Of a DNA stretch of 64,000 nucleotides, positions 6,001 through 64,000 are shown one piece after another. The stretch is from Apostichopus japonicus (Eukaryota > Echinodermata > Holothuroidea > Aspidochirotida > Stichopodidae), in contig NC_092583.1 of NCBI RefSeq assembly GCF_037975245.1, positions 601,764 to 665,763 on the forward strand, read 5' to 3'. The translations under genes and the position numbers were made by a program. The notes under the pieces were generated by a model. It had not been told where the DNA came from and made no database searches. It saw nothing but the letters and a program-made list of their open reading frames with translations. Each line of letters begins with the position of its first letter. Position 1 is the stretch's first letter.

Positions 6001-6373
6001 GGTCAGTCTCTTGTCTAACATCTGCAATGCTACTCTGATAACATTCAGCAGGTCAGTCTCTTGTCTCGCATCTGCAATGCTACTCTGATAACATTCAGCA
6101 GGTCGGTCTCTTGTCTCACATCTGCAATGCTACACTGATAACATTCAGCAGGTCAGTCTCTTGTCTCACATCAGCAATGCTACACTGATAACATTAAGCA
6201 GGTCAGTCTCTTGTCTCACATCTGCAATGCTACTCTGATAACATTCTGCAGGTCGGTCTCTTGTCTCACATCTGCAATGCTACTCTGATAACATTCAGCA
6301 GGTCAGTCTCTTGTCTCACATCTACAATGCTACTTCCATAACATTCAGCAGGTCAGTCTCTTGTCTCACATCT
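1..6373. repeat. 50-bp minisatellite array (at least about 127 copies)
   Basis: An almost perfect 50-bp unit, readable as tcagcaggtcagtctcttgt followed by a ctcacatctgcaatgctact block and a variable cNgataacat end, repeats from base 1 to about 6373 and runs off the left edge. Most differences fall in a few positions (ctcac/ctaac/cccac; ccgat/tccat/actgat/tcgat). Two units, near 2501 and 5849, are 47 bp long through a 3-bp loss. Multi-unit blocks are themselves duplicated: the rare gcatgtcag variant recurs exactly 250 bp apart (4001 and 4251). The right end of the array is more diverged, as is usual at array edges. It lies in BBS9 intron 4, on the downstream side of exon 4. Not coding: the reading frames it contains are by-products of the periodicity. 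Confidence 0.98.
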
Positions 6374-20600: not shown

Positions 20601-22787
20601 GGCAAACTTCCACATTCTGATCAAAGGGTTTAGGAGAAGATCTTCAGCCCTTGCATGTTACCCTTTGTATATACCTCTACTTGTATGAGAAGACACAGAT
20701 AGGATCGTGGGGCATCATGGCTGACAAAGACTTACACTTCATTGATTAAAACAAGGTTTCATATATTTTTAAATTTGAACAGGGGTCCTAGATACCAGCG
20801 AATTTCTACCCGAGTCCTACCGTGCGGAAGCAACAAAGTTACGAGATAAGTACTATCCGATCGAAATGTCTACCAAGGTAGGAATTGCAGAAAAGACAGA
20901 AGCCATGATAAAGTGGTAAGAAAACTTAATCCTACACCTAAGATAGTTTACAGGGAGACATTGCGGGCTTTGTAGAGTGGGTTATTGTTCTACTTACTAT
21001 CTGTACCTCATCTCTTTAAATACAGTTGCTAAATTTCAGCTAATGTATTCAATCCTCACATTTATTATGATTATTGTTATGATTATGATTATTGTTATGA
21101 TTGTTATTATTTGTTCTGTAGGTGGACTACTGCTCATGGTCTCCTGGTAAACTGTGACCTTACCAAAGACAAAGTCTCTAAGATCGTCGAAAACAGCATG
21201 ATTCGTCTCAGGTAAGCAAAAATTTGCGGTATAATTGGTCAAGTTGATTAAAGGCATCCTCTTACACTTTGCTATCACAGGAATTACCACAAGGGACTAA
21301 TGGATGATTGCATATGATTGCAAAGAATCATAATATTAGAATTTATCACATACAAACAGCTTTTCAGTATATATTTTTCTTTTAATCTCTCCTTTATTAT
21401 ATAACAAGACATGCCTAGAAAAGCTATGAAATCCAGTTTGGTAGTATTTTTGTCTTGAATAAAATGAAAATGTTAACAAAATCTTTGACAAAAAGTTGCA
21501 CTTAAGGGCTGACGTTATGATATCATCTTAATAAGTCAATCCTACTGTATTATTTTTATCCTCCTCTCATTTCTCAGGGATCACGTCAACGAGACGTTAG
21601 AGATGCTAAAGGAGAAAGAAGTGCCGTTGTTAATATTCTCAGCTGGTGTGGGAGACATTCTGAAAGAAGCTATTAAACAAAGAGCCCACCTCCACAACAA
21701 CATTCATGTCATCTCAAACTTCATGGACTTTGATGAGGAGGTAAAATAAAAACCACTTTCTCCTTTTTGCTGCAACTATTTGAATCTTCTAGGACAGATG
21801 TTGATGTAAAATTACTAAATTGGAAATAGTATTGACTGCAATTATCATTGGTGTTTGTGATGTTAATACATATAATAAAATATCCCTAACAGTAGTTTAG
21901 ACAATAGTTGCATTTCAGCTTCTTTTAATAACTACTTTGTCCTGGCTTTGGTAGGTCACATCAGGATTTTGTCTTTCTCTCATATACACAAGACTGCAGA
22001 TTTGAACAAACCTATATGATATTCCATTTTTCTAGAATGTTTTAAATTTTGTTCTGTTTTCTTTTCCTATGTGAAGGGTAAACTGATTGGTTTTAAAGGT
22101 GAACTCATTCACACTTTTAATAAACACGAAGTAGCCGTCCACCATCCGGAAATATTTGAGAAGAACAAACTACGCAGCAACATTGTCCTTCTTGGGGATA
22201 CCCTCGGAGATTTAACGATGGCTGATGGAATGCCATACAAACAAACTCTCCTAACCATAGGTTTTTTAAATGACCATGTGAGTATCGAGAGATGATTTTA
22301 TTCTGTTTGATTACCACGTTGCATTTAGTTATTATTTACTCGAGAAAGTTCACACAGGATAGGGAATCGTTAGACAAGTATTAGAAATGTTTTTGTTAAA
22401 TTTTTCTATTCATACCCCCCCCCCCCCCCCTTGTCTAGAGGTTTACAAAAATGAAGATTGTTATTTCCTTTTAATTTAATATTTTATTTAAAGCCTTCTT
22501 TTTCTTCTCCATATATATATATATATATATATATATAATTGAAACTGTAGTGAGTTGGAAAATATATATATATGTATGTGTGTATATATAATTCTGAGAA
22601 TATAGAGTTTTATAAGACTAAAGATTTCAATTTACTTGATATTTATTCATTTTATTCTAATTCTTCTTTCTTCACCCTCTCTTAGATATCTGAGAATCTA
22701 GAGGTTTACAAGACCAAATACGACATTGTTCTAGAGGATGACGAGAGTTTTGATGTTTTTTACGCTATTCTCAAGAAGATTTTGTAA
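17606..22787 (+). CDS. NT5C3: Cytosolic 5'-nucleotidase III (pyrimidine 5'-nucleotidase), 8 coding exons, 327 aa
   Basis: HAD-superfamily enzyme that removes phosphate from CMP/UMP-type monophosphates. Exons: 17606-17731, 18912-19010, 19827-19896, 20783-20915, 21122-21211, 21578-21740, 22077-22277 and 22686-22787, all GT/AG with continuous phase. An in-frame TAA 15 bases before the ATG supports this start. HAD motifs: DFDKTMS (nucleophile and acid Asp, exon 3), FSAGVGD (exon 6), the KGELIH lysine (exon 7) and GDTLGDLTMADG (Mg-binding, exon 7). The length is close to human NT5C3A (336 aa). Exon 1 encodes a hydrophobic stretch LLIGAGLAAVSAVAFYTLSS, like the membrane-anchor N-terminus of the long human isoform. 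Exon 2 begins with ATG directly after its acceptor, so an alternative first exon could give a soluble form. Intron 7 has a C-run and a (TA)n tract. Divergent from BBS9. Whether it is nearer NT5C3A or NT5C3B was not tested. Confidence 0.95.
22417..22585. repeat. Poly-C tract and (TA)n microsatellite in NT5C3 intron 7
   Basis: A run of about 14 C at 22417-22430 and uninterrupted (AT)n at about 22511-22537, with a further ATATATATATG stretch near 22562. Simple sequence, likely length-polymorphic. Confidence 0.9.
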
Positions 22788-23990: not shown

Positions 23991-23993
23991 AAC

Positions 23994-24975
23994 TTGTAAG
24001 TGGACCTGGCTTGTTTGTGGACCTTACCTTGTATGCGGACCTAGCTTGTAGGCTTGTGTATGTGTACCTAGCTTGTATGTGGACCTAGGTTCTAGTTACA
24101 CTAGTCTCTCTGTGGACCATGCATGTATGAGAACCATGCTTGTATGTGTACCTAGCTTGTATGTGGACCTAGCTTGTATTTGGACCTAGGTTCTAGTTAC
24201 TCTAGACTGTCTGTGGACCATGCTTGTATGAGGACAATGCTTGCATGTGTACCTAGCTTGTATTTGGAACTAGGTTCTAGTTACCCTAGACTGTCTGTGG
24301 ACCATGCATGTATGAGGACAATGCTTGTATGTGTACCTAGCTTGTATTTGGACCTAGGTTCTAGTTACCCTAGACTGTCTGTGGACCATGCATGTATGAG
24401 GACAATGCTTGCATGTGTACCTAGCTTGTATTTGGACCTAGATTCTAGTTACCCTAGACTGTCTGTGGACCATGCATGTATGGGGACAATGCTTGCATGT
24501 GTACCTAGCTTGTATTTGGACCTAGGTTCTAGTTACCCTAGACTGTCTGTGGACCATGCTTGTATGTGGACCATGCTTGTATGTGTACCTAGCTTGTATT
24601 TGGACCTAGGTTCTAGTTACCCTAGACTGTCTGTGGACCATGCTTGTATGTGGACCATGCTTGCATGTGTACCTAGCTTGTATTTGGACCTAGGTTCTAG
24701 TTACCCTAGACTGTCTGTGGACCATGCATGTATGGGGACAATGCTTGCATGTGTACCTAGCTTGTATTTGGACCTAGATTCTAGTTACCCTAGGCTGTCT
24801 GTGGACCATGCTTGTATGTGGACCATGCTTGTATGTGTACCAAGCTTGTATATGTACCTAGGTTCTAGTTACCCTAGACTGTCTGAGGACCATGCTTGTA
24901 TGTGTACCTAGGTTTTCTGTGGACCTAGCTTGTATGTGGACTCCTCTTGTATGTGGACCTTAGCTTTTGTTAAAC
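23994..24975. repeat. 84-bp composite minisatellite built from 16-17-bp modules
   Basis: About 8-9 copies of an 84-bp unit. Each unit is five related modules of 16-17 bp: cttgtatttggacctag, gttctagttaccctag, actgtctgtggaccatg, a gcatgtatgaggacaatg-type module, and cttgcatgtgtacctag. The edges (23994-24170 and 24890-24975) consist of single modules in irregular order, which suggests that simple 17-bp repeats came first and an 84-bp block was amplified later. Because 84 is divisible by three, one plus-strand frame stays open for 245 codons. The resulting 28-residue periodic peptide has no family resemblance and is not called a gene. Located about 1.2 kb past the NT5C3 stop. Confidence 0.93.
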
Positions 24976-28410: not shown

Positions 28411-29482
28411 ACTATAAGGCACTTCATGTAGAAGACTAGTAAAACTAGGCCAGTCACAAGGGCACTTGATGTAGAATACTGGTAAGACTATGCCCATGAC
28501 AAGGGCACTTCCTGTAGAATACTGGTAAGACTATGCCCATGACAAGGGCACTTCCTGTAGAATACTGGTCAGACTGCCCAATAAAAGGGCACTTGATGTA
28601 GAAGACTAGTAAGACTGCCCATGACAAGGGCACTGTATGTAGAATACTGGTAAGACTATGCCCATGACTGGGGCACTTCATGTAGAAGACTTGTAAGACT
28701 ATGAACATAACAAAGGCACTTCATGTAGAATACTGGTAAGACTGTGCCCATGATAAGGGCACTTCATGTAGAATACTGGTAAGACTATGCCCATGACAGG
28801 GGCACTTCATGTAGAATACTGGTAAGACTATGCCCATGACAGGGGCACTTCATGTAGAATACTGGTAAGACTATGCCCATGACAGGGCACTTCATGTAGA
28901 ATACTGGTAAGACTATGCCAATAACAGGGCACTTCATATAGAATACTGGTAAGACTATGCCCACTACAAGGGCACTGTATGTAGAATACTGGTAAGACTA
29001 TGCCCACTACAAGGGCACTTCATATAGAATACTGGTAAGACTATGCCCACTACAAGGGCACTGTATGTAGAATACTGGTAAGACTATGCCCACTACAAGG
29101 GCACTTCATGTCGAAGACTAATAAGACTATGCCCATGGATGGCAAGGGCACTTCCTGTAGATAACTAGTAAGACTGCCCATGGATGGCAAGGGCATTTCA
29201 TGTAGAATACTGGTTAGACTATGCCCAATAGAAGGGCACTTCCTGTAGAATACTGGTCAGACTGCCCAATAGAAGGGCACTTGAAGTAGAATCTGGTAAG
29301 ACTATGCCATATACAAGGGCACTTGATGTAGAATACTAGTAAGACTATGCCCATGACAAGGGCACTTGATGTAAAATACTAGTAAGATTATGCCCATAAA
29401 AAGGGCACTTGATGTAGAATCTGGTAAGACTATGCCCATGAAAAGGGCACTTGATGTAGAAGACTTGTAGGACTGTGCTATT
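28411..29482. repeat. 43-bp tandem repeat (about 25 copies)
   Basis: Unit of about 43 bp, readable as gggcacttcatgtagaata followed by ctggtaagactatgcccat and gacaa. Copies vary from about 40 to 50 bp; some carry an extra atggcaa next to cccatgg (near 29130 and 29180). Several reading frames through it are periodic and not coding. Confidence 0.93.
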
Positions 29483-32537: not shown

Positions 32538-35500
32538 TTAGCATTTAACGTCCAGGACCCACCTTTCTTCTCTTTCAACTTTCCCGCTAGTAACTTGTCC
32601 AACGTTTGTCCCTACGTTACCATTCTTTGCTAACCTTTTAGCTCCTTTGACAGTGTGAATCTGTTTTCCTGTCTTGTTGATCTCTTCTCTGTACTCTGTG
32701 GTGACCGGTTCTTTATTCTTGCCAGCATCAGCCTGTGTCTTATAAGACGGCTGCGAGTCTTGAACTTTTCTCTGGTGGTCGTAATATTTCTCCCGTTGCT
32801 GATTCCAATCCTGCTTATAACCCATGCTCAACAGTTTACCAAATATTACAGGCTCATCAGATTCTTTCCTGAAATACCCAAAAAACAATGATGTTAACAA
32901 TTCTTTGGTGTCAAATCAAAGATAAAATTTATACCAAACAAAATGGAAAATATTGACGACCCTTGTTGGAATGCTAATAAACTGTGTCGTTAGAGTCCCA
33001 TGCAGTGTTTCCATCTAACATGCCTGCCTTCCTTTCCTTGTGCAAAAACCCACCAGATGGCCCAGATCTGTTAAGACTGCTGTAGTCCACTAATAATGCA
33101 TGGCACTTTTGATCCATTTGATAATTCATCAACCTTAAACTTAAGAACTTTGGATATATAATGTTCCCCAAATGACCTTTGACCTCCACCAAAAACGATA
33201 AGGTTTTTTTAAATTATCATAGGGAAGCCACATGAAAAATATGAGAGCCAATAAAGTTTCCAATCTGGAGATATCATGTTTACAAGGATTTCCCTCGTGA
33301 CTTTAAATGAACTCTGACCTACACCAATTTGTGTGAACACTTTGCTATACACATAAGGCTATCCTACCATGCACATGTGCGCTCCTTTGATGTTCAGGTT
33401 CTGGTTTTTCAGATTTTGCCCTTTGCTGACCCCAAATGACCTTGACCTCCACACAAAACAAAGGGTTTTTGTACTTATTATTGGAAAGCCCCATGCTAAG
33501 TATGAGGACAAGCTAGGGCATCATATACACATACACCAACTAGACTACATATAAGGTTACTTGCTGCATACGGCAAGAAACCAAAAATAATAAGTAAATG
33601 GAAACTGAAGCCTAAAATCTATCTAACACTAATATGAAAAGTTATAATGCATGTCCAAAATGTAACATTGTCAATATGAATTTGTCACTAAGCATTACCC
33701 TTTAAACAGAAAATGATTGAGTTTTTCAATTTTCAATAAGCATGGTTTTCATATAACTATACTTTGAACAGCAATTTTAATGTGATGTCCTCAATATCAC
33801 ATACACCACTCCGTCCTATATATCACATACACCACTTCTTATAAGAGGACGTCATAGACTATCAAATGAGAGAAATAACTTCAGCTTACATAATACTCTT
33901 CTGTTTCTGTGTTAGGCTGTCTCTCCTAGCTGCCAAGGCTTTATTCATCTGATCTACTTCACTTTTCTTGTTTTTCTTGGCAAATCTCTTACTGTGGGGG
34001 ACATCTTCAGGCAGGTTAACAGTTTTATTTGTGACACTGTCTCCATCCCTCTTAAAGGCGCTGATACCGTCCTGCAGGGAGTATGGTGGTCGGCGAACGG
34101 GGGGTCTACGGTCTCCCATAGAGTCTTCATTGGGGTTTGATGAGTCGTACCCTTCATGAACCATGTAATCTGGTAAGTATACCTTACGTGGACTGTAATG
34201 TAAAACAGAAAGTTATAAGTACTAGACAGGGAATAATTTAGTGTTTAAATATTTGTCCAGCATTTTGGAAGGTTCTGAATTTTTCCTCTCATTGCATCCT
34301 ACAGTTCCTGTGTCAAAACACTCCTAAACATCTTAACACAGTTGCATAGTAACTTGACCAGTTTGTATAGTGTTTTGCCATACTGGTTATATTATCCCTG
34401 CTAGGGTTAACATTATCTATGCTAGGAGTAATATTATCCCTGCTAGGGTTAATATATTATCCATGCTAGGGTTCATATACTATCCCTGCTGGGGTTCATA
34501 TATTGTCCCTGGCTAGGGTTAATATATTATCCCTGCTAGGGTTAATATATTTTCCCTGCTAAGGTCCATATTATCCCTGCTAGGGTTAAATATTATCCCT
34601 GGCTAGGGTTAATATATTATCCCTGGCTAGGGTTCATATATTATCCCTGCTAGGGTTAATATATTGTCTCTGCTAGGGTTCATTTATTTCTTGATATAAG
34701 CAGAACACACTGACATTGTTGATTTTTTATTTATCTCTAAGGCTACGAGTCTTGAGGATATTCACATAAACCACCTTAGCAGTATTGTAGCTGTTTTACT
34801 ATCATGGAAGCATAAATGCAACTGTCATTATAACAGTTAAGATCTTCAAGAACATCAAAAAAAAATTGGTGGCCACCAGTGTATTGATTAATTACTCTTA
34901 TGGGTTAATCAAACACTTAGTTTGATTCTTGGCAATCAGTTTCAGATCAGACCTCTGTATAACTGAGGAAATATATATCTAGAAACATAAAGCAAACTCA
35001 TTGAGATATTTAAGTAAATCAACTAATGAATAGACAGATAATACAACAAAATAAGCAACTTGAAATAAGTACGAACAAGTGAACAAATATGTAAGATGAA
35101 GATTGTACCTGGTGTTCTCTTCCTGTTCCTCAACTTGATGATCAAACCAATCAACTCGAGGATAAGCCTTAGGTCCATCTGGCTTGGGGGGCGGAGTTCT
35201 TATGGACAACAAGTCTACAATGAAACAAAGAAAGAATTGAAAATGTCTGTAAAGAAATCATAGTTTTGAAATATCCATTTCAATTCTACCATTGAACATT
35301 GTGAATACTACATGATGTATACAGACAAAATATTTCAGGCTTAAATATTTAGATGTATGGTAAAGTAACTTTATGAAATTAAACCCACAATTATATGAAT
35401 GATATATGAAATACTGGGGCAGACTCAGCAATCTCCGAAAGCTGCAGTAATGATAACACTCTCTCAGATCTGGGAGGGGGAAAGGGTTGGGGGGGAGGGT

Positions 35501-38500
35501 TTGCACAAGCCTGAACCTTCTCATCTTTCAACCCCACACAAGTAATCTAATGCAGATATTAGCTCAACCTTGTGTGTAGACTTGATAATAGTCCTAATTT
35601 ATAGCATAAAATATAGTGTTGCGCCGATATTACCAATATCGGTTTTGGCCGATATCCGATATTATCATCCCAATATCGGTCCGATACCGATACCGATATT
35701 TTTTAACAGACAAAATAAAGGCAAAATCGTACTTTTAGTCATGCATACATTCACAAATAAATCTTCAAGTAAACAACAAAATATGGTGTTTTGTTTTCCT
35801 TTTGTCCTAAGTTGAAAAGAATGACTTTTTTCCTGATTTTGAAAAAGAGAATTATAATTGAAATCCAACCAGAATCTTTTTCACTGCAGCGCTGCACGCG
35901 ATAATAAAATGGACGCAGTAAATGTGAGCCTTAACATCGTAAAGACTTACAAGTAGCTATAGTGTTAACGTATGCTTGCAAAATTGCATCTTAATTAGGT
36001 TACGAACTGTCGATCACAATGTAAAAATGATAATTTATTGAGTTTATACTCAATGTACAACTTATTCACTTGACCGTATAGAGAAGAAAAAAACTGAAAA
36101 TCAGTAGAGAAATGACCAATTGTGTACGGAAAGTAAGGTGGTACACCTTTCAAATATTACGAAAGATCGAACAAAACACTTTCGAAAAATTCACGCAAAA
36201 CTGGCATATCGTACTAAATGCAACTAATGTCATGTAAACAAGGCTCTAGTGCATCCATTTATGAATATACCGTAAGACCACATCTGTTTTTAAGCGGGGG
36301 AAAAAAGAAAGTATTTTCTAGAATTTCCAAAAATACGGAAAAAATAATATCCTACCATAGTTAATTGTATAGCAAATAGCCTAACCACCTCGGCGGTTAC
36401 GGATCTCACGTAACTGAAAAGTTCCCTGGCAACTTGCCAAAAAATGTTAATAAACAGGTGTTACACAGGGGATGAGCTTACAGTGTGTTTGGGAAGGTAC
36501 CTGGGAAAATTCGCAGCACATGTACGGCGGTAGTTGGGTATAGGGTTAAACACCGCAGTTGTAAAAATGTACGCATTGTGCACGCTATTCATTGTTAGGC
36601 AGTCTAGAGACAGGGCTTTGCTGAACGTTGTTTGTTTCATAATATCGGAAGTTTTGTAAGTTGCACTTTTTAAAGATTGAAAGACAGATTAAATCTCTTT
36701 TCATTTTATAACATAATATAGCTACTCTAACTTGTCATTTTAAAATTTTCATCTGTTTCGTGACAATTTAAATAAGAAAATTATTTTGCATACTCAACTG
36801 CGATTTTTTTTTTATCGCCAGACACGCAAAAAAAAGCCAATTTTTCGGGGCTTTATCCCCAAGGATCCCCACAAGGGGTTCTACCCCATGACCCCACCAA
36901 GGCCCTAAGGCGGGCCCCTGGACACTACGCCTTTATGCTCGCGTGCTCGGCGTGTTCGCTGGGCGAACACCGGCGGGAAATCGGCAGTGTGTTCGCGGAA
37001 AATTAAAAGTGCAGTTATGCATCATGTTCAAGGTTTTCACGGAGGCCTTTGAGAAAATGAATGGTTAGTACAGTACAGTGTATACATGCTGCACTAATGC
37101 TATGTGTAGGCCAAGGTTCACGAAGGTCATTGGTTATATTCGCGCGGTAGACGTGTTTTAGAGGTTACGGAGGGTCAGGTTTCCATGGATATTAATCGAA
37201 AATGAATAAGAGTTTAACTGACGCTAAAGAAATGGATCGTCTTGGGCAGATTAACAAATCATTGCAAGTATAAATAAGTAGCTCTGCTGTGAAAAAAAAA
37301 GTTCAATATCGGCTTGCTGTTATCGGCAATTAGGCAAAATTTTACCGATACCGATATGCTGCCGATATTGCAAATATCGGCCGATACCGATATTGAAAAC
37401 GATTATTGGCGCAACACTAATAAAATATACCTCAGAATGCACCATTTCATGTTTATAATTTTCAATTTTTCTAGAGGAAGACCCCCAGACCCCACCAAAT
37501 AGGATTCAACTTTAATGACCTCAAGGCCTACCCCCCCCCCCTACCCGCTCCATTTTGCAAATCCTAGATCTGCCCATGCTATGAAATTGCTCAAGTGCAT
37601 TAATATATTACCCTTTCTTCCTCCCATTTTAGCTAATCTGACATATTTAGAATCGGTCTCTCTCAACCATCCTCTTTTCATTCCACCATCATCCCTGTCT
37701 GGTGTGATAATCAACTCTCCACCAATCAGAGGAATTTGTGAAGCTGCAGGATAATCTACTGCGGCCTGCTTACTGTCTTTCTTCGCTGGGGCGTGGTAGA
37801 ACCAATCTGAAGATAAAGTATAAAAACAAGGTTTACCATCACTGAAATTCTAACCTGAAAGAAAACTATAGAGAAACATGAAGGAAACTATTTACCTGTC
37901 AGGCTGGCAAGTGGCAACTAAGTATGTAAGAAAAATTTGTGATCGGTTTGAATACTTTTAATGGAAATTTGGTCTGTGTTTTAATTTTATCCTGCAACTA
38001 TATATGATTCCATTGATTGGTTTGATCAGTCTGATAAAATGAGATTTATACCACTAGGCTCAAGATCCTGAGTCACTAGGATCTAAGCAAGCAGAAATGA
38101 ACCTAAAAGTGTTCACCCTTTAAGGGTTAATATATAATTACTGGTGAACTGTGTGTTCAGGAAAATTCATGAAAGTGTTTATAAATTATACAAAATTGAT
38201 ATTTGCCTGTCTCATTGTGGCATCTTAAGCTGTTTTTATTTAAGCTGTCATAGGCCTGGATTAAAAGTGCATGTAAAAAGTTAGTTTCAGTTTGATATTA
38301 CAGTATAACATTCCAACTACAATGTCTGTCAAAACAGTTTCATACACTTACAGGCCGCCCAGCATGTGAACTTACAGTTCTAGTATTTAGGCTTAGCCTA
38401 GTAATAATAAGCTAGGCCATGTGAGTTACTGTAGCGCCTAGCCTAGGCCATATAGCCTTGCCTACACTACATCACTACTGCAATGACTTTGGCCGAACAG

Positions 38501-44125: not shown

Positions 44126-45222
44126 ATGTCTGCATCGAAGCCAAGCTCTGCCGTAATGTTGTATGAACCACTATCTTTCCTTAAGCCATTCAACCAAGAG
44201 GAAAGAAGTTTTACTGTGGCAGGTCACCTCATACATATTCATCAGATGTGGCAAGAGCTTGGTGTGGCTGCCGTAGTGTGGGATGCCGTAAGTACATATC
44301 ACATGTTATCAAGTTTTTTTTATTTACGTTCGTTTCAAAGTCTAGTGTAATATCAGATGGTAAATACAATCAAGTCTGAAGTATTCAAGATTGTTTATTG
44401 TTTCCAACAGGCAATTGTATTAACTGAATATTTAGAGCGTCAAGTTTCCGCTGGTCGACTGGTGATGAAGGATAAAAAAATAATCGAGTTGGGAGCAGGG
44501 ACTGGACTTGTCAGTATGGCTTCAGCTATATTAGGTAAGTTGATCTGGTGGAAGGCAGCAAAGATTAGTTGGGCATATTGGTGGTATTTCTTTGCAGAAT
44601 GAAGGATGTCTCACAGACCCAGGTCACCATCCAATCTGGACAGAGTTGAGTGAATAAATTATCAAGGGATTCAATCATGAAAAACAAAGTTTTGTATTAA
44701 TTTTGCTTTGTTGTAAGCATTGTCATTTTCAGTTGTGTGGATGACCTCAATAACACCTGATCATTTGATTTGAATCTTATGCCTTGTTCTGTGGAATTGA
44801 AGTTTTCTCTCAGTGTATTTAATTCTTTTTTTTTAGGTGGGAACACCACAAGCACAGACAGAGAAGATACTCTCCAAATTCTCAAGAAGAACATTGAAGC
44901 AAACCTTGAAGATGATCTTTCATCCTTCCGAGATCTCCTCACTGTTCAGAAGTTGGACTGGGGAGAGAACTTAGACGTCTTTCAAGAACCATTTGACTTA
45001 ATATTAGGAGCTGATATTATTTATATCGAAGAAACATTTGAAAAGTTGCTGGCTACGATAAGGCATCTGTCCACTAGGGCAACGAGGCTTCTGTTATCTT
45101 GCAGGATACGATACGACCGTGATTTACGCTTTTTGGAAATGTTACGTCAATTTTATGAAGTTAAAAAGGTGCACAAAGATAGACAAAGGGGAATTGATAT
45201 CTACAGGGCAACTTTATTATGA
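44126..45222 (+). CDS. METTL21A: METTL21A-type protein-lysine methyltransferase, 3 exons, about 223 aa
   Basis: Seven-beta-strand methyltransferase of the METTL21 group; human METTL21A trimethylates a lysine of HSP70 chaperones. Exons: 44126-44287, 44411-44534 and 44837-45222, with GT/AG sites in phase 0 and 1. Diagnostic blocks: LGVAAVVWDA-AIVL across the first junction (the same junction sequence as human), IELGAGTGLVS (SAM-binding motif I), a TDRE acidic loop, DLILGADIIYIEETF (with the DxxY motif of this family) and LLSCRIRYDRD (human LLACRIRYERD). Length agrees with human (218 aa). The frame is open upstream to an ATG at 43955, which would add 57 residues with a hydrophobic segment. I chose the ATG at 44126 because it gives the family's normal N-terminus. 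AATAAA at 45470-45475 is a candidate polyadenylation signal. Confidence 0.93.
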
Positions 45223-47728: not shown

Positions 47729-48382
47729 AGTATGCTTTCAACATCGTAGCACTATCAGGTATGCTTTCAATATAATAGCACTATCAGGGATGCTTTCAAC
47801 ATCATAGCACTATCATGTATGCTTTCAACATCATAGCACTATCAGGTATGCTTACAACATCTTAGCACTATCAGGTATGCTTTCAACAACTTAGCACTAT
47901 CAGGTATGCTTTCAACATCGTAGCACTATCAGGTATGCTTTCAACAACGTAGCACTATCAGGTATGCTTTCAACAACGTAGCACTATCAGGTATGCTTTC
48001 AACATCGTAGCACTATCAGGTATGCTTTCAACATCATAGCACTATCATGTATGCTTTCAACATCGTAGCACTATCAGGTATGCTTACAACATCGCAGCAC
48101 TATCAGGTATGCTTTCAACATCGTAGCACTATCAGGTATGCTTACAACATCGTAGCACTATCAGGTATGCTTACAACATCGTAGCACTATCAGGTATGCT
48201 TACAACATCGCAGCACTATCAGGTATGCTTTCAACATCGCAGCACTATCAGGTATGCTTTCAATATTATAACACTATCAGGTATGCTTTCAATATTATAA
48301 CACTATCAGGTATGCTTTCAATATAATAACACCATCAGATATGCTTTCAATATAATAACAACATCAGGTATGCTTTCAACGT
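47729..48382. repeat. 29-bp tandem repeat (about 22 copies)
   Basis: Unit ggtatgctttcaacatcgta followed by gcactatca, with variants ttacaac, acaacgt and, at the right end, atattataaca. Copies at the right edge are the most diverged. Confidence 0.95.
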
Positions 48383-49978
48383 TATGAACCTCTCTGAAAA
48401 GCATTTTTCATTACCAAGTGAATTGCTTTGACACAACAGTTCTTATTGTAAACACCCTGGTATGTGTGTTATTTATCAAAGAACAAAAGGTTTGATTAGT
48501 TTCATCCTATCAACAAGAAATTAACAGCTCTAGGTGCAAATTGTCTCACTTTCAAACCAAGCAATGTAAAGCATCTAACCAGCTAAACAGTTTTTGAATG
48601 AGATAACGTCACATATTTTAGTCAATTATTGAACTCAAAGCTTAGACAACACTGAGCCTTGCTGCAAATTATAGAACTTGCAACCAACGATTAGATACCT
48701 TAAGACAGATTCAAAGGTAACCAAAGTTACAGCAAATAACTGAGCGTCAAGTGAGGAAGCATACTTTCCTTTATGTTTTTATTTAATGTGTTAATACCAG
48801 TTTTTATTAATAGCTCACCTACCTAACCAAGTCAAAATGTATGAATACACATGGAAAGTGGACACACAAAAAAGTCAAATTAAATAACCAATCTTGTTTT
48901 TAGGAATAGGTCTTGTAACCTACATGTAAGATAAATAAACAGAACTTGAACATTTTGTTTTGATCTGAAACAAACTTCAGCCAGGCCTGACTTGTTCCAG
49001 AAAATACAAAGTAGTGTGATTGAGACCAATATTGATTATGTCTCATGACAAACTAGGAAATAAATGAAGATCAATTCTGCATACTGATTTCTGACTTTCA
49101 AATGAATTATTAATTAATATTGTTTATGACACATTCAGAAGTTGGAGAGAGCCATCTTCAATTTGCAAAGGATACACCTCAATTGTCATTTCAAAATTAT
49201 GTTTATGGTAAACCAAAAACAGAGATATAAGGGCAAAATTCTTCTTTGTACAAATAAACATTTTTTTTTTTTATGAAGAAATGTTGTTGGCAGCATTTGT
49301 CGTTTTGAGATAAATGCACCTTACTCATGGAACAAAAGACCAAGCTTATACACATTAGAAAACTAAGAAATTAAGGACATTATGTGTGAGAAAGACAGCA
49401 CAATAACAAAACAGAACAAAAAAAACCAAAAATGAAAGAAAATCAAACAAATACAATAGCTCAGGGATCACAACAATACTGCAAATTAATTTTAATTATT
49501 CCTTAATGAACCTGTTAGAAACAGAGACAAAACAAAGAGAAAATAGAACACTATCTGTTAATAACTACTGTGTTTAAAAGTGAGGTTATTTTTAAGGCAA
49601 TATCTGGAAATGGCAACATCCCCAAGAAAAGACAACACTTTACCATCTTTTCATCTTAATATTATAAGTTATTTTTTTTAGAAAGTTTAAACCTTCCATA
49701 GATTGTTAGAATATTTAGAGGGCTGACATTTGTGAGGTGTAACCAGAGGACATCATGAACTGTGCTTTAATGATACATATACATTTGACCATTCAAATAA
49801 AGGAAAAAACAAGAAACAACAACAACTTTCCACGATAAAACAAAGCATCATAAGTTGCTGTTTCATACAAGAATGTAAAACATTTCTAGATGAAAAGGTA
49901 TGTTCTACAGCGGTAACTATGGCATCATGTTCTTTAACCCCCAAGATTCATTAAATAGCAGTACATTGCACATGATTA

Positions 49979-50135
49979 ACCAAAGGTATCACTTGATGGG
50001 TTTCAGGTTAACGAAAGGTATTACTTGATGGGTTTCAGGTTAACCCAAAGGTATCACTTGATGCGTTTCAGGTTAACCAAAGGTATCACTTGATGGGTTT
50101 CAAGTTAACCGAAGGTAACACTTGATGGGTTTCTG
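49979..50135. repeat. About 32-bp tandem repeat (5 copies)
   Basis: Five copies of accaaaggtatcacttgatg followed by ggtttcaggtta, with small substitutions (e.g. gaaaggtatta, gaaggtaaca). Confidence 0.9.
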
Positions 50136-50875: not shown

Positions 50876-53800
50876 CTACGTCATGTAGGCATTCTCATTC
50901 TTTAACTTCTCTAGCTCCTTAACTTGTTGTCGTAAAAATACAATCCTGTAGAAAGAGTGAGAGCAGAACAAAGTGAAAAGTGTATGCATAAGCAGTCCAC
51001 ATTTAATGTGTTAATGTTAGTGATCTTTGTTTAGTGAATCTCAATGGTTAGGTATGCCATCATTTGACACCTTATCATCCAAGTGATGATCCTGGTTCAC
51101 CACTGGTTTATAATTAGGCAGGCGTGGTATTGTTGCACCAAGTCCTGCGCCCACGACCAACGATTCACTTCCCCATCTGACGGATGAGAGCGTACCCAGC
51201 CTCTGACCATTTTCTCACTTACTGAGGGAGGTAATGTTGTTTAGAAACCCCATTTCACAAATCAGAAATACCTAATTCATGTAAGACTTTGTTCAACCAT
51301 ACTGCACAGGAGCAGTTTTGAGGTCAATAGCATCTGGTTCTGGCAAGGATGTGGACTGGGAACCTAGCGGTTGTGGGGCGTACAATCTAACCCTTTCACA
51401 ACACCTTCACCATTAGTACCCATTATAACTATTTACTTAAATATCAATCTTCAGGTGAAATCAATCTAAAATTCATTTAAGTTATTATGTTTTCATTTCT
51501 GTTGCAAGCGCAATCACCATTCCATTTGGTGATTTCTTATCAGTTGTACAAGAACCACACAGACGATATACTTTCTTCAGAATATTTCTTTGGAAATGTA
51601 ACATACATTCACAATGAAGCTAATGACTTATAGATGAAGCACCATATATATATGTACACAAATTCATTGATTTCCCTCATGTGGCGACTAACACCTGGAA
51701 CAAGCTGAATAAACTACAAAATGGCTTAGGTCAACCTTGGTGGTTTATTTAACTTTTACAATATATCAACTGCTGGTGGAAAGCTTTCCTGTACATCCTT
51801 TTGATAAATGAACACTCATCTCATCTTAAACTTGTGAGTGGAACTCAACTGCTTGTTTGTAACAGTAGCCATGTTTGTAACATTACATTACTGAAACACT
51901 CTCACCTTATCTTTTACTTGTGAGTGCAACTCTACGGCTTGTTGTTACAGTAGCTGTATTTGTAACATTACCTTACTGAAGAGACGAGGGAACTTACCTA
52001 GACGCTTGTACGTTGGCTTGGATTTCTGTGGTACGGACCAGCGATCTGGCAAACTTTAAGTCCATCATAACCTGTGAGTAATTTTCGAATCCTAGCCTGT
52101 AATAATCTCTCTGTACAAGGTGAGCCTAGAGATGAAACAAAAGAAATGCCATTGTGTAATCAACTTGTTGTTAATTACCAGATAGATAAGATGACATGGA
52201 TTGCGACAGTCAAGGAGACACATGGATAACATTAACGAGGTACAGCTCAACCAAAAGACTATCAATTGAGACAAATGAAAATGTGCATGTCACGTGCAAG
52301 GTATTAAAGTGAATCTAATTTATGAAATCCAGAAATTAACACAACAATTAACATTATTTTCAGCTTTGCCAGCTGATCTTCCCAGCATTGTAACTTTTAC
52401 TTTAACATTTACGAATCAAAGGAATTGAATTTTGTACAACCTGCATCATATTGTAGAAGGCTTTCATTCTAAAGCATGGTAATAGGTGATCCTAAGTTAT
52501 AATTCACAAGATATAACAAAGAGGGAGGGAGGGGGTGGGGGAGATGAGGTGGAACAGGGAGAGGGTGTGTCACCTAAAATATATAAACATTGCTTCTATA
52601 AATTTGATTTAATTTTACCTGTTTCTCCAATTGCTCGACAGGCGAATTCACCTTATGCTTCACTAAATCTTCACTATAATAATTTGAATGAGTTTCTGTT
52701 GAAAAGATGATATTGTTAAAATGAAGTTCCTCCTCTGTAGGCTTAGCTATGGGTGGAGGGACGACTAACTCCTCAGCTGAAACTGCAGAATTCATTGAAT
52801 CGCTGCTTCTTCTGGAGAGAAGAAAGAAAGAAAGAACACGATTGTTAACATTTGTAAAATACATTCCTTTTGCTCTATTACAGGGAACAAATGGACACCA
52901 AAGAATTAATCTGTTGCCTGTTCAATTAAAAGGATAACAAAGACTAAAATTTGAAGAAAGTAAAACAAAAAGATTGGTTCCATCTTGACTTTTTCTGTTC
53001 ATGAGACTTTTGAAATTAATTCCTTTTTCTTCAGATAGGTACATTGCACAATACTTTTTTGACATACACGGACCTTGCAATCAAATTATTGCCAGTTTTC
53101 TTTTTATCAGTTTTCACTGATGCAACTGTGTAGTTGTAATGAAGTCACTTGATTACTGTTTCTACAGAGTCTTGTCTAGGACTAATATCTGCTTTGGCTT
53201 ACTTTGTTATGGTTTCTACAGCATCTTGTCTAGGACTAATATTCTTTGACTTACTTTGTTATTGTTACTACAGTATCTTGTCTAGGATTAATATGTTATT
53301 TGACTTACTTTCTTATGGTTTCTACAGCATCTTGTCTAGGACAAATATTCTTTGACTTATTTTGTTATGATTTCTACAGTATCTTGTCTAGGATTAATAT
53401 GTTATTTGACTTACTTTCTTATGGTTTCTACAGCATCTTGTCTAGGATTAATATTTTATTTGACTTACTTTCTTATGGTTTCTATAGCATCATGTCTAGG
53501 ATTAATATGTTATTTGACTTACTTTCTTATGGTTTCTACAGCATCTTGTCTAGGACAAATATTCTTTGACTTATTTTGTTATGATTTCTACAGTATCTTG
53601 TTTAGGACTAATATTCTTTGACTTACTTTGGTGTGTTTTCTACAGTATCTTGTCTAGGATTAATATGTTATTTGACTTACTTTCTTATGGTTTCTACAGC
53701 ATCTTGTCTAGGATTAATATGTTATTTGACTTACTTTCTTATGGTTTCTACAGCATCTTGTCTAGGATTAATATGTTATTTGACTTACTTTCTTATGGTT

Positions 53801-56800
53801 TCTACAGCATCTTGTCTAGGATTAATATTTTATTTGACTTACTTTCTTATGATTTCTACAGCATCTTGTCTAGGATTAATATTTTATTTGACTTACTTTC
53901 TTATGGTTTCTATAGCATCATGTCTAGGATTAATATGTTATTTGACTTACTTTCTTATGGTTTCTACAGCATCTTGTCTAGGACAAATATTCTTTGACTT
54001 ATTTTGTTATGATTTCTACAGTATCTTGTTTAGGACTAATATTCTTTGACTTACTTTGGTGTGTTTTCTACAGTATCTTGTCTAGGATTAATATGTTATT
54101 TGACTTACTTTCTTATGGTTTCTACAGCATCTTGTCTAGGATTAATATGTTATTTGACTTACTTTCTTATGGTTTCTACAGCATCTTGTCTAGGATTAAT
54201 ATTTTATTTGACTTACTTTCTTATGGTTTCTACAGCATCTTGTCTAGGATTAATATTTTATTTGACTTACTTTCTTATGGTTTCTATAGCATCATGTCTA
54301 GGATTAATATGTTATTTGACTTACTTTCTTATGGTTTCTACAGCATCTTGTTTAGGACAAATATTCTTTGACTTATTTTGTTATGATTTCTACAGTATCT
54401 TGTTTAGGACTAATATTCTTTGACTTACTTTGGTGTGTTTTCTACAGTATCTTGTCTAGGATTAATATGTTATTTGACTTACTTTCTTATGGTTTCTATA
54501 GCATCATGTCTAGGATTAATATGTTATTTGACTTACTTTCTTATGGTTTCTACAGCATCTTGTCTAGGACAAATATTCTTTGACTTATTTTGTTATGATT
54601 TCTACAGTATCTTGTTTAGGATTAATATTTTATTTGACTTACTTTCTTATGGTTTCTACAGCATCTTGTCTAGGATTAATATTTTATTTGACTTACTTTC
54701 TTATGGTTTCTATAGCATCATGTCTAGGATTAATATGTTATTTGACTTACTTTCTTATGGTTTCTACAGCATCTTGTCTAGGACAAATATTCTTTGACTT
54801 ACTTTGGTGTGTTTTCTACAGTATCTTGTCTAGGATTAATATGTTATTTGACTTACTTTCTTATGGTTTCTACAGCATCTTGTCTAGGATTAATATGTTA
54901 TTTGACTTACTTTCTTATGGTTTCTACAGCATCTTGTCTAGGATTAATATTTTATTTGACTTACTTTCTTATGGTTTCTACAGCATCTTGTCTAGGATTA
55001 ATATTTTATTTGACTTACTTTCTTATGGTTTCTATAGCATCATGTCTAGGATTAATATGTTATTTGACTTACTTTCTTATGGTTTCTACAGCATCTTGTC
55101 TAGGACAAATATTCTTTGACTTATTTTGTTATGATTTCTACAGTATCTTGTTTAGGACTAATATTCTTTGAGTTACTTTGTTATGGTTTCTACAGTATTT
55201 TGTCTAGGATTAATATCTTCTTTGACTTACTTTCTTATGGTTTCTACAGCATCTTGTTTAGGACTAATATCTTCTTTTTCATCTTCTTCCTTCGTCTCGT
55301 TGGTTATCATCTTATCCGGTGGTTCAACCTCCTTTGATTCATTACCGTCCATCTTCTCATTAGTTTGGTTCTCCAGGTGTTGACTTGATGACAAGTTGGA
55401 TAAGGGGGTAGACATACTATTTACTGGGGATGGATATGATTGGGCTGGGGAAGATAGGTCCGACACTGATGCAACTGACATTGGTGAAGGATTTGAAAAT
55501 TCTGCAGGATGAAAGAAACATCACTCCAATACATGTATGATAAAGTCATAGTACCAGCACTAACCCTTAAGTTTTCAAGGAGGAGTCACAACTGAAACTG
55601 AATGTTACACAGTCTACTTTGAAAAGCTTAGGCATCAAATTTGGATATGGAGCTAATGTGTTAGGCTACCTGAGTTGGCAGTAAATCTTTTCAAGATAAT
55701 GTTATATTTGCCCTTTCTGAGTTTGAAGTCAAAGAAACAATATCTGAGGTCCTGGGAATCAGTCATAGTTTGCGTTTTTGTCGGTACAGTAATGTTAATC
55801 ATCATCATCATCAGCTTCCTGAAACTAAGGAAGCTAATTCCTGAAACATGTGAGCAAGGGAAGTTACATACTGAACATCTTGTCATGTGACAATAACGCT
55901 ATGTCCACATCCAATGATTCAAACACACAAATGAACCATTAATTACTACTTATCTCCATACCAAGAGAGGTGAGAGATATCCTGATTGATATCACCACAT
56001 ACAGGTAAGAACGACAAATATAGTCTGCTTCTTAATCAAGATTGGATACACTGGAGGTTGTAAACCCTTGTGACTTCCACACTAATACATACATTGAGTA
56101 TGTTTGGGAGTTTGAATACTCACTTGGTTGAAGTTCTTCTCTATTGTCTTCATGAGGTTGGGAAACAGGTGACCTAGACGTCGACCTCCTCCAGCGTTTC
56201 TGCTGATTTTGTAAAGGGGTTCTAATTGTTGTCTTAGGTGAAGTTGTTGGTAATGGAGATACAGTAGCAATATGAGGAGATGGACTATTATTAATCTTAG
56301 GCGATTCTGTAACAAAAACAAAGAGATTTAATTAAAATATTATACCAAATTCAAGTTTTGTTGAACAGTTTCATGGAGGTAGAGTCTTAACTTACTGTAG
56401 ATACTTCATCTTGATATTACATTCTTAATACAGGTATCAACAAACCTCCCTTTCCATTGTACTTCAACTGTGAATGATCACGACAACCACGGTTATACTT
56501 TAAGGGGTTTTACAGCAGCTGCTGAACTTGACTGTTGAATAAAAATGCTGGAAATCTTCTGCATCATTTAGGGAAATGTTCACATTCTGTGTAGCAGTTT
56601 TAACTTTCAAAGGTTCTGAACTTATAACATACTACTTATAACATACTACAATTCATGCGTCTCTTATAACATACTACAATTCATGCGCGCAGAACTACCA
56701 CACGTCTTTGCTCTTGTATAGCAATTTGACCATTTTGGGTGGTATTTTGTGATGTGGTAGCTGATAAATTATTCCTGTCTTATGGTCAAATCCACAATCT

Positions 56801-59800: not shown

Positions 59801-62800
59801 GTAACACTCTTTACACATTCAAATTCTTGTTATCAAAGTTGAAGTACAAATTTTAAGGTGCAATTTTTGAGTGCATAAAGTACCAAAACAGTTTGCACAA
59901 ATTGCATCTAAGCTGTCTACAGCCACTGAAATCATAGGCAAGACAATGATATGTCTTGTGAGAAAATGTTCACAACTTGTTGTTAAACCCTGTGCTGATT
60001 GATACATTGTACTATTATTTTATATTTCTATTTATGGTAGCGCAGCAGTATGTGTTGGCCCTTTCTCTTCTTATTACTTTTACTTGCAATACAAAGTTTG
60101 TTTTACAAACGAGCAACTATTCCGTGTGCTGAGAAGAAACAGCAATCCAGTACATCCCTATGAACGTGGGAAAGAACCAAACAAAAGCTGAAAAATGATC
60201 ACTGTTGGTAAAGTATTCAGGCCGCTAGGTAGTGAAAGAAGATTCTAATGGTGCAAAACCAAAATCATTTGAAAAACAGAAAACAGAAGTATCTTACCAT
60301 TTCGGTCCCTCCTCCTGACTGAATTTCCAGAACTAACAAGGTTCTTTAAACGGCCGTACATATCAGTGGCCAATGAATTTGCTAGAGGGTGTATTCCAAG
60401 GCTGTCCTGTTGACCTGGGTCAGTCCCGTTTCCCTCATACAATCTACGATTAAGGCTAGGCGAAAGTTGATGCGCATTGTATGGAGTGTCATTGTCATTA
60501 AGCCTAGATGATGCACTCTCTTTTCTAATATCTTCCTCATAAACGCTGTTTTTAGAGTGGTCCGACTGTCGCACTGACCCCTTGGATGGATGGGAACGAC
60601 TATTTTCTGATTGGCTAGTGTGGTTCACTTTGCCGTGGCTGTTACTATATCTCCTCTGTGATTGGCTAGATGATTGCCTTCTTGAATCTGATTGGTTAGG
60701 TGTGGATGATGATGTTGACGATGATGTCGTTGTCCTATCCTGAGTTCTGTAAGGCTGTGACTGCTGCTGCTGCTGCTGACTTGATCTGGACTTACTGGAA
60801 TGCTTGTCATTACCTGAAAAATCATCAAAGTAAATATGCAAATTATCTCATGCATATTCTATACGATAGAATTCAAGGCATCCAATTATCCGCACCCCCA
60901 CTAGGAAATATCCAAAGGAAGTGTTCTTCTTTGTGATAATATTATGTCTAGGAAGTGTGTCTTTCTTTAATTTTTTTTATGTTAGTAATTCACTTTCTCT
61001 AGGATATATAACCTTAAATTTAAGCCTAACTGTGATAGTAACATGTTCAAGGCAAGTGGCAGATAATTACAGCAAGGTTGAACGGGTCTACCCAAAAATC
61101 AGGCAGTCACAAATAATTGCTGCGAGTTAAAATATCTTATGGTACTTCCCAAGGCTGTCTTCATCCAACACTTTGCAATAAGTATAGCTTAAAACACTGC
61201 ACAACTAAATATGCAGAATCTTTAATGCATGATATGTGACAAATTCTGGCCATGCATCATCATGAATCCAGTATGACTTACCTCTGTCCTTACTTGGTGT
61301 GGTCTTAACATTGGTATGAGAGCTAGATGCTGGTAACTTTCCTCCAATTGCTTTTTCCAAGGTTTCCCTAATGTAAGAAAAACAGACAAATAGGTAATTA
61401 TAAGTTGGAACTTGATGGGTCCCCACATAGCAAGGGTAATGGTTTCCAATTTTCCACAGTTTGACTTTTGCATAGAGTGTGTAACCCTGGAGATAAACCA
61501 GACAAGGATTTTACATTTCACAATCTTCGTGTTAAGGGACTTAAAAAATGAGGAGACCCATGGAAGTTATTAGCAAGTGTATGGACATGAGATTGTTTGC
61601 AATTTGTCAAGATTCACTTCATCAAACTTGAACTTATTTCAGCAGTTTCCAAACTTGTGAGCTAACCCATACGTCAATGAAGATTTTCGTCCAATCAGCA
61701 AACGTCAACAACTACTACATAAATATCAATTCACATCTGATTACTACGAATAAGGACAGGCAAAAAGATAACACTCCCGTTTCATCATGTATACAGAGTC
61801 AGTAGAATGGATCATTGGAGTTTTGGTAAGTCAAACCTTCATACACCTTGAAGAAGGTTCCAAAGAATACTTATTGAGGGTAAGTTTTGGTCCACTTACA
61901 GCGGGCTTTTCCTATTCAGCTGAATATGGTGAAGACCAACTAGTCATGTTTACACATATTTGGCATATCAGACACACACAGCTCCAAAGAAGGTTTGTAC
62001 ATTTATACAACATAAATTTGTAATTGCTTACTTTTCAATCCACTCCTTTGGCTTTTCCCACTGAGATACCTCGGTCTTACAGTTGTAGTAATATTTCTTG
62101 CCAGATGAGCTCGTGTGCATGGTCCACTCATTGACTCTAGCGAAGAGCTGAATTAGAACAGAAAGACAAACATGAAACCACTAGTACATGCTTTACTTGG
62201 ACCAACAGCATGCCAAGATCAAATCCAGGCAAACAAAACATAAATATCTTGAACTGTGTAATAACTTAAGCATGAACAGAAGGACGGTAATGATTTACAG
62301 GGATACCAGACGGAGCCTGTTCAATTATGGTCAGATATTATCCAAAGACTTGAAACTGGCCGATTGGCTAACACATGCACAGATGTATTTTGAAATTTGT
62401 ACACAGAATACTGACGCCCACATACAATGATTAGAAATTTGTATTAAAGTATGCAACACTAATTATGCCCTGCATTTCATCAAAATGTCAACATGAGGGT
62501 CCACACAGTGTTACACATATAGTGCTTAAATGCATTGTAACAGCTTGAAGATAAATACAACAGTGTGAAACACTGTGTTTGCTATCATTTTACATATATG
62601 CAGTAAATCTTAACTCACTTAATCCCAATGGGAGTGTTTAAGAACATACTAGGCAATCATTACCCTACATAGTTAAAGAACATGAATTTGTTCAAAGAAT
62701 GTCAGGGTTTCACTACTTCATGAAAATTAATAAATACAGAATGCTTCAAAGATGCCAAATGTCAACCAGGCTACCTTATTACCTGAAGTTCACTTACAGT

Positions 62801-63469: not shown

Positions 63470-64000
63470 TTAGTTTTATTTGCTGACGACACATGCATTT
63501 TAGGTCTTATTGAGAAGAATGGTGACGAAACCGGGTATAGGCATGAAATATCCACCTTTACGAATTGGTGTGACGAAAACAGATTACAACTGAATGTGTC
63601 TAAACCAAAGGAGCTTGTTGTTGATTTCCGGCGTAGGGGGCACCAACTAGAGAGAATTGAAATTAGGAACGAGCCAGTAGAACAAGTCCATTCTTATAAG
63701 TATCTGGGAGTTTCCATTACTGATAAATTGGAGTGGGGTGAACATGTAAATACTGTTCTGGCCAAAACTAATCAACGTATGTTCTTTCTACGGAAGCTCA
63801 ATTTATTCAGACTAGACGCCTCTCTCATTTCTTTGTTCTACAATGCGGCCATCCAGACCATAATTACATTCTGCTTGGCTGCATGGGGTGGCAATACGAC
63901 TGCTAGAGACATGGCTAAGATGAATACACTTGTTAGAAAAGCGAGGCGAGTTTGCCGGTCTGATGATCTCAGATCAGTAGATGAGCTGCTTGTCAGGGTA
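63470..64000 (+). mobile_element. 5'-truncated non-LTR retrotransposon (reverse transcriptase fragment)
   Basis: A plus-strand frame is open from 63470 to the window edge (about 177 codons). It begins at LFADDTCIL, the FADD form of the reverse transcriptase catalytic box. It continues with WCDENRLQLNVSKPKELVVD, YKYLGVSITDKLEW, FLRKLNLFRLD and AAWGGNT, the thumb-side sequence typical of CR1/L2/Rex1-like LINEs. Nothing of the element precedes the FADD box: a stop codon lies directly upstream and the flanking sequence is not RT-like, so the copy is 5'-truncated as in most LINE insertions. No frameshift is visible in what remains, suggesting a young copy. It is antisense to WAC, in the intron upstream of the 63350 exon. 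Confidence 0.9.

Follow-up and report, generated by a model that had tools for sequence, protein, structure and literature searches.

The 64,000-nucleotide stretch analysed here (the window) comes from the sea cucumber Apostichopus japonicus (contig NC_092583.1, positions 601,764 to 665,763) and carries on its minus strand the gene WAC, one intron of which is largely filled by a minisatellite whose repeat unit includes the end of the preceding coding exon and, very likely, its 5' splice site. The identity of the gene is supported by the WW-domain exon and the last coding exon, both of which match human WAC in tblastn, and by a Pfam WW domain. Three weak human WAC matches lie between these exons in the expected order (E values in Table 1). 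A C-terminal piece of human WAC gave no match in the genome at E 0.001, though the window has those exons.

Of the GT sites in the 271-nt exon preceding the array-bearing intron, five are in phase 2, with exon ends at 55480, 55465, 55414, 55393 and 55231; only the site at 55231 reads GTAAGT. When the donor at 55231 is joined to the acceptor before 52811, the last four WAC exons form an open frame that runs to the WAC stop. Because the splice phases agree and 55231 alone among the phase-2 sites has GTAAGT, this position is very likely the WAC donor, as a first-pass annotation of this DNA had assumed in calling it the genuine exon/intron junction. Reading beyond 55231 encounters a stop at once (AAG TAA, the TAA lying inside GTAAGT), so that use of a decoy donor farther along would truncate WAC.

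Unit-by-unit anchoring on the minus strand of 53142-55277 resolved 40 units, the parent exon copy plus 39 more, spaced 54 or 52 bp apart. Tandem Repeats Finder (TRF) reported the same array at 53158-55277 with a period of 54, 39.7 copies, 89% matches and a score of 3197; its rows with periods of 320 and 374 are this array again. The 39 copies run from 55223 to 53142 and account for 2,082 bp, most of the 2,419-bp intron. An approximately 39-fold tandem amplification of exon end and 5' splice site through the next 2.1 kb of intron, as described by the first-pass annotation, is thus borne out by both TRF and unit alignment. The annotation had divided the unit into 44 coding and 10 intron bases; the 54-bp unit is the same, and our division into 47 and 7 differs only in where an ambiguous AAA is placed. 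An intact AAA|GTAAGT (bar, splice junction) is present in the parent and in 30 of the 39 copies, which places dozens of decoy donors directly behind the one at 55231. The stricter AGAAA|GTAAGT, said to survive in most copies, is found in the parent and likewise in 25 of the 39. Altered donors read ATAAGT in six copies and GTAACT, GTAAGC and GTGACT in one each. Calculated U1 pairing energy is equal for the parent donor and the intact copies (-5.6 kcal/mol). When the genome (671,581,487 bases in 35 contigs) was searched with the array DNA, 11 matches were found among the best-scoring candidates, all within this array. The same genome has no exact match to a 22-mer arginase primer of A. japonicus, which may cross an intron or differ in sequence. 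Chance is excluded as the source of the array itself; given how rich the genome is in minisatellites, however, the coincidence of an array with an exon end is no great surprise.

Sorted by type, the WAC units read ABCDEFFGHDEFIDEHCJEFFGHCDEKFGGHCDEFLDMNO. A block CDEFFGH or CDEKFGGH recurs in the interior, while the first two types (A and B) and the last three (M, N and O) occur only once, as do the interior singles I, J, K and L. The parent's AAAGAAGATATT stretch is kept in the first copy and appears as AAAGCAGATATT in the last, whereas internal copies carry AAATAACATATT, AAATAAAATATT or a 52-bp AAAGAATATT instead.

The first-pass annotation regarded minisatellites that span and reiterate an exon-donor junction as unusual. 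This view needs correcting: amphioxus 'mirages', in which the repeat unit spans an exon-intron boundary, have been published, and four more donor-spanning arrays were found among 160 conserved exon matches in the same genome. These matches were drawn from 285 reported for the Pfam families PF00069 (protein kinase) and PF00071 (Ras) (134 + 151). The sample comprised the best 30 per family with 1.5-kb flanks (60 matches) and 100 more picked by hand with 160-bp flanks, intronless-looking kinases and long matches being omitted; the short flanks, used for 100 of the 160, hide long-period arrays. An array was counted if it had at least three copies and a period of at least 15 and spanned an exon edge. 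Donor-spanning arrays were present at 4 of 160 matches, in three genes (a MYLK-like kinase, PRKG and two CDK11 copies), and acceptor-spanning arrays at 0 of 160.

The amplified exon ends in these genes can be compared with relatives. In a paralogue of the MYLK4-like kinase (L022) the junction is identical but no array spans it, and LSGLSPF follows after the next acceptor. The parent exon ends in PRKG and CDK11 are colinear with the solved PRKG1 and CDK11B proteins. At one CDK11 copy (L077), the two exons that flank the array-bearing intron together encode 116 residues, and their alignment to CDK11B crosses the junction with no gap. To judge from these alignments, both parents are clearly old coding sequence, and in CDK11 the array starts at that exon's donor. 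TRF gave 11.3 and 10.7 copies for the CDK11 arrays, counting from a point within the parent unit. Beyond the first donor, a stop follows at once in WAC, the MYLK4-like kinase and PRKG and after 13 codons in CDK11.

Table 1. Predicted WAC exons, the WAC array and the other donor-spanning arrays. Positions without a contig or locus label are those of the window.
Feature	Location	Strand	Description	Evidence
WAC WW-domain exon part	62031..62135	-		Pfam WW, E 2.8e-11; tblastn human WAC, E 1.2e-13 (74% identity)
WAC exon	56124..56306	-	phase-1 end	
WAC coding exon, 271 nt	55231..55501	-	phase-1 acceptor, phase-2 donor; ends ...VETIR + AA|GTAAGT	tblastn E 1.8 for this exon alone; phases fit both neighbours
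Parent repeat unit	55224..55277	-	last 47 coding bases of the WAC exon + GTAAGTC, 54 bp	unit alignment; donor AAA|GTAAGT
39 tandem copies	53142..55223	-	copy length 52 or 54 bp; AAA|GTAAGT intact in 30; higher-order repeat of ~7 units	TRF and unit alignment
Array-bearing WAC intron, 2,419 bp	52812..55230	-		donor and acceptor read from the sequence
Next WAC coding exon, after TTCTTTCTTCTCTCCAG	52619..52811	-	phase-2 acceptor, phase-0 donor	weak human WAC match, E 0.60
WAC coding exon, C-terminal coiled-coil part	51998..52125	-	phase 0 in, phase 2 out	E 0.019; phase-compatible joins
Last WAC coding exon	50876..50945	-	phase-2 acceptor; stop at 50876	human WAC match 50947-50882, E 1.1e-6
MYLK4-like kinase exon (L021)	L021 1854-2354; C23 kinase match 17719552-17719920	+	exon ends VGVICYTL; 31 bp x 15.9, unit = exon end + mostly GTAAGT	
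PRKG exon (L114/L165)	L165 33-842; C6:18782132-18782941		ends ELLTG(R); 42 bp x 19.3, GGCAG|GTAATC or GGCAA|GTAATC	
Two CDK11 copies (L076/L166 and L077/L167)	C11 at ~6.33 and ~9.61 Mb, 3.3 Mb apart		70-bp units ending AATAAAG|GTGAGC or similar, ~11-12 units each	

Further repeats were observed near these exons. At the PRKG locus the 42-bp unit recurs in a small separate island (L165 1571-1739), and in one PRKG unit the sequence is TACTAACTGGCAG|GT, similar to a branch point followed by AG|GT. Behind the 6.33-Mb CDK11 array lies a 41-bp array of 24.3 copies that reaches the end of the fetched stretch. In all, seven matches had an array with a period of at least 15 and at least three copies within 60 bp of the match edge. 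Besides the four counted, these were L061 and L131, in which the array begins inside the intron past the donor, and L118, a simple repeat ending before the acceptor. Three others fell below the cut: L033 (a 10-bp T-rich repeat by the acceptor), L040 (1.9 copies) and L107 (2.2 copies, stopping before the exon).

Since some of the best 60 matches are intronless-looking kinases, the sample has fewer exon edges than its 160 matches imply. Judged by in-frame stops, edges are visible within approximately 160 bp at 144 matches on the 3' side and 141 on the 5' side, and 4 of 144 visible 3' edges lying in arrays corresponds to a 95% interval of 0.8-7.0%. Within 300 bp of matched exons, arrays of at least three copies cover 815 of 36,000 bases (2.3%); farther out, at 300-1500 bp, they cover 6,212 of 144,120 (4.3%). 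The MYLK4-like kinase's own array supplies 300 of the 815, and the near cover is 1.5% without it. Blind placement would therefore be expected to put 2 to 6 of the 144 visible 3' edges in arrays, and 4 were seen. The probability of finding 0 of 141 visible 5' edges in arrays is 0.002 under the far cover, 0.04 under the near cover and 0.13 under the near cover without the MYLK4-like locus. Avoidance of acceptors by arrays is accordingly possible but not established. Phase 2 is shared by three of four independent arrays (WAC, MYLK4-like and PRKG; p 0.036 against a background of 22%), a bias that is only an idea because the count includes WAC, the seed of the comparison.

We propose that the WAC array is probably a mirage: tandem duplication of the exon's last bases together with the 5' splice site would have seeded a minisatellite that then grew in the ordinary way, with the first donor being the one used. 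Through replication slippage or unequal exchange, a single duplication would have placed a copy of the exon end and donor in the intron. Unequal exchange may then have multiplied and homogenised the middle, generating the observed higher-order repeat of approximately seven units and leaving the edge units distinct. The order of unit types fits exchange of this kind in mid-array and diverged units remaining at either edge, the pattern described in amphioxus mirages (PMC3087553). Splicing is predicted to take the exon-proximal donor and to remove the extra donors with the intron, and this may be why the arrangement persists. A slip to a decoy donor meets the AAG TAA stop, and the truncated transcripts would probably be degraded. 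Neither special machinery nor a function is required to account for such arrays. Their recurrence would follow from the genome's wealth of minisatellites and from the fact that duplications on the donor side need not break the gene.

A broader proposal, which we put forward tentatively and hold to be doubtful, is that donor-biased mirages are widespread in sea cucumber genes, affecting, to judge from this small sample, approximately 1-7% of exon ends, with 11-40 near-identical donors tolerated only at the 5'-splice-site side. Such tolerance would arise because splicing takes the first donor and an early in-frame stop disposes of slips. Were this true, the genome would offer a great many natural experiments in how one among dozens of near-identical donors is chosen.

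Several points weigh against our account. The case for first-donor use is drawn from frame and conservation, and in WAC itself the amplified peptide does not align with human WAC in tblastn. Whole-unit likeness to the parent is 0.89 for the first copy and 0.80 for the last, versus 0.93-0.94 for several internal copies. The asymmetry between donors and acceptors (4/144 versus 0/141) is not significant (Fisher p 0.12, or 0.25 with the CDK11 pair taken as one). Three occurrences of GGTAAGT at a spacing of 20-50 gave 561 + 461 genome matches versus 832 + 455 for the reversed motif, and thus no excess, in a test that is blunt because the matches overlap and are not arrays and because the WAC and MYLK4-like units have no leading G. 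As the 3' edges are also as expected, nothing suggests that donors attract arrays.

The foremost alternative reverses the order of events: an older intronic minisatellite would have been present first, and the exon would later have grown into its first unit, making the coding end a recruited repeat. The acidic, Lys-rich character of the encoded tail, with its failure to align to human WAC, would suit such an origin, and the four upstream phase-2 GT sites (GTCAGT at 55480, GTCGGA at 55465, GTCTAC at 55414 and GTCATC at 55393) could in principle be older donors. However, GTAAGT and GTGAGT are absent from all four, and splicing at the best site, GTCAGT, would leave an exon of only 22 nt. A parent stretch resembling AAAGAAGATATT is common to the first and last copies, and the parents in CDK11 and PRKG, in the same genome, clearly appear to be old coding sequence. 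We therefore consider prior existence of the array improbable.

Still less probable, and in our judgement very unlikely, is a functional array in which decoys hold the U1 small nuclear ribonucleoprotein, or in which their regulated use lowers WAC output through early-stop transcripts at a strength set by copy number. The 30 of 39 decoys identical to the real donor and the immediate stop upon decoy use are what such a role would call for; yet GT has been lost in six copies of one shared variant pattern, with no sign of purging or upkeep, and occurrence of the same arrangement in unrelated kinases suggests a general by-product.

PacBio HiFi reads are normally much longer than 2.1 kb. Collapse or expansion of repeats during assembly is scarcely credible as the origin of the array: although minisatellite copy numbers are often uncertain in assemblies, the unit types are diverse and ordered, the same form recurs in unrelated genes, and the A. 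japonicus assembly was made from HiFi reads according to the accessible part of its description (PMC10344927).

Elsewhere in the window, a 50-bp minisatellite of 127.6 copies, whose consensus unit includes a donor-like CAGGTCAGT, occupies 1-6373. It also fills 2,371 bp upstream (L168, C23:599400-601770), and its left end lies farther still. By eye, no clear exon-edge array was found in one or both flanks of the arrays at 1-6373, 23993-24966, 28418-29478, 34388-34688, 47730-48380 and 49976-50133. Other predicted features of the plus strand are a UMPH-1 pyrimidine 5'-nucleotidase exon (22020-22292), a Methyltransf_16 lysine methyltransferase exon (44761-45219) and a likely fragment of a non-long-terminal-repeat reverse transcriptase (63470-64000; RVT_1 E 0.0048, below the curated cut-off, and ALKBH8_N E 1e-6). 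On the minus strand, a DUF5524 protein is represented by two exons, one of them below cut-off (32541-37849). The mitochondrial COX1 gene on contig C35 is open under genetic code tables 5, 9 and 13, of which we take table 9 (echinoderm) to apply, from COX1 residues such as STNHKD. COX1-like pieces also occur at C29:14745-31219 and represent a nuclear copy or an unmerged mitochondrial contig.

With tens of equal 5' splice sites in series and a working protein predicted from the first only, the WAC intron constitutes a natural test of the rule by which a donor is chosen. The presence of such arrays in several echinoderm genes suggests that mirages, previously known to us from amphioxus only, are a more general outcome of minisatellite growth at exon ends. 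In addition, automatic annotation could misplace the ends of exons that carry such arrays.

In period, copy number and higher-order structure the WAC array is like ordinary intronic minisatellites; unlike these, its unit includes coding sequence and a likely functional donor. It also resembles the Rogers model of intron gain by tandem genomic duplication, exemplified by the potato RdRp case in the accessible part of PMC4974935, in that coding sequence with a splice signal has been duplicated in tandem. In the Rogers model, however, copies of AG|GT supply both donor and acceptor and create a new intron, whereas the WAC unit has AAA|GTAAGT and no AG|GT at its donor, the fitting acceptor is the ordinary one before 52811, and an existing intron has been lengthened. 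No minisatellite at an echinoderm exon boundary appeared in the titles found by a literature search, which covered open papers only and is weak evidence of absence. The closest counterparts are the mirages of amphioxus Adh3 and the globins BflGb6 and BflGb9 (PMC3087553), with TnC and PGBD5 as further examples in the accessible part of PMC3902484. The WAC array can be assigned to this kind on its anatomy as read from the DNA: the parent unit spans the predicted exon-intron boundary, the splice signal survives in many of the repeats, though not in every one, and the interior, consisting mostly of recurring types, appears to have evolved in concert without the single types at the ends. Normal splicing and instability, the latter as length differences between haplotypes or somatic cells, have been reported for the amphioxus mirages (PMC3087553). 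The hosts differ, being cephalochordates in one case and a sea cucumber in the other, and so does array size, which is approximately 11-40 units in the sea cucumber versus 3-6 in BflGb6. Finally, amphioxus mirages involve both donors and acceptors (PMC3087553), whereas those in the sea cucumber sample span donors only.

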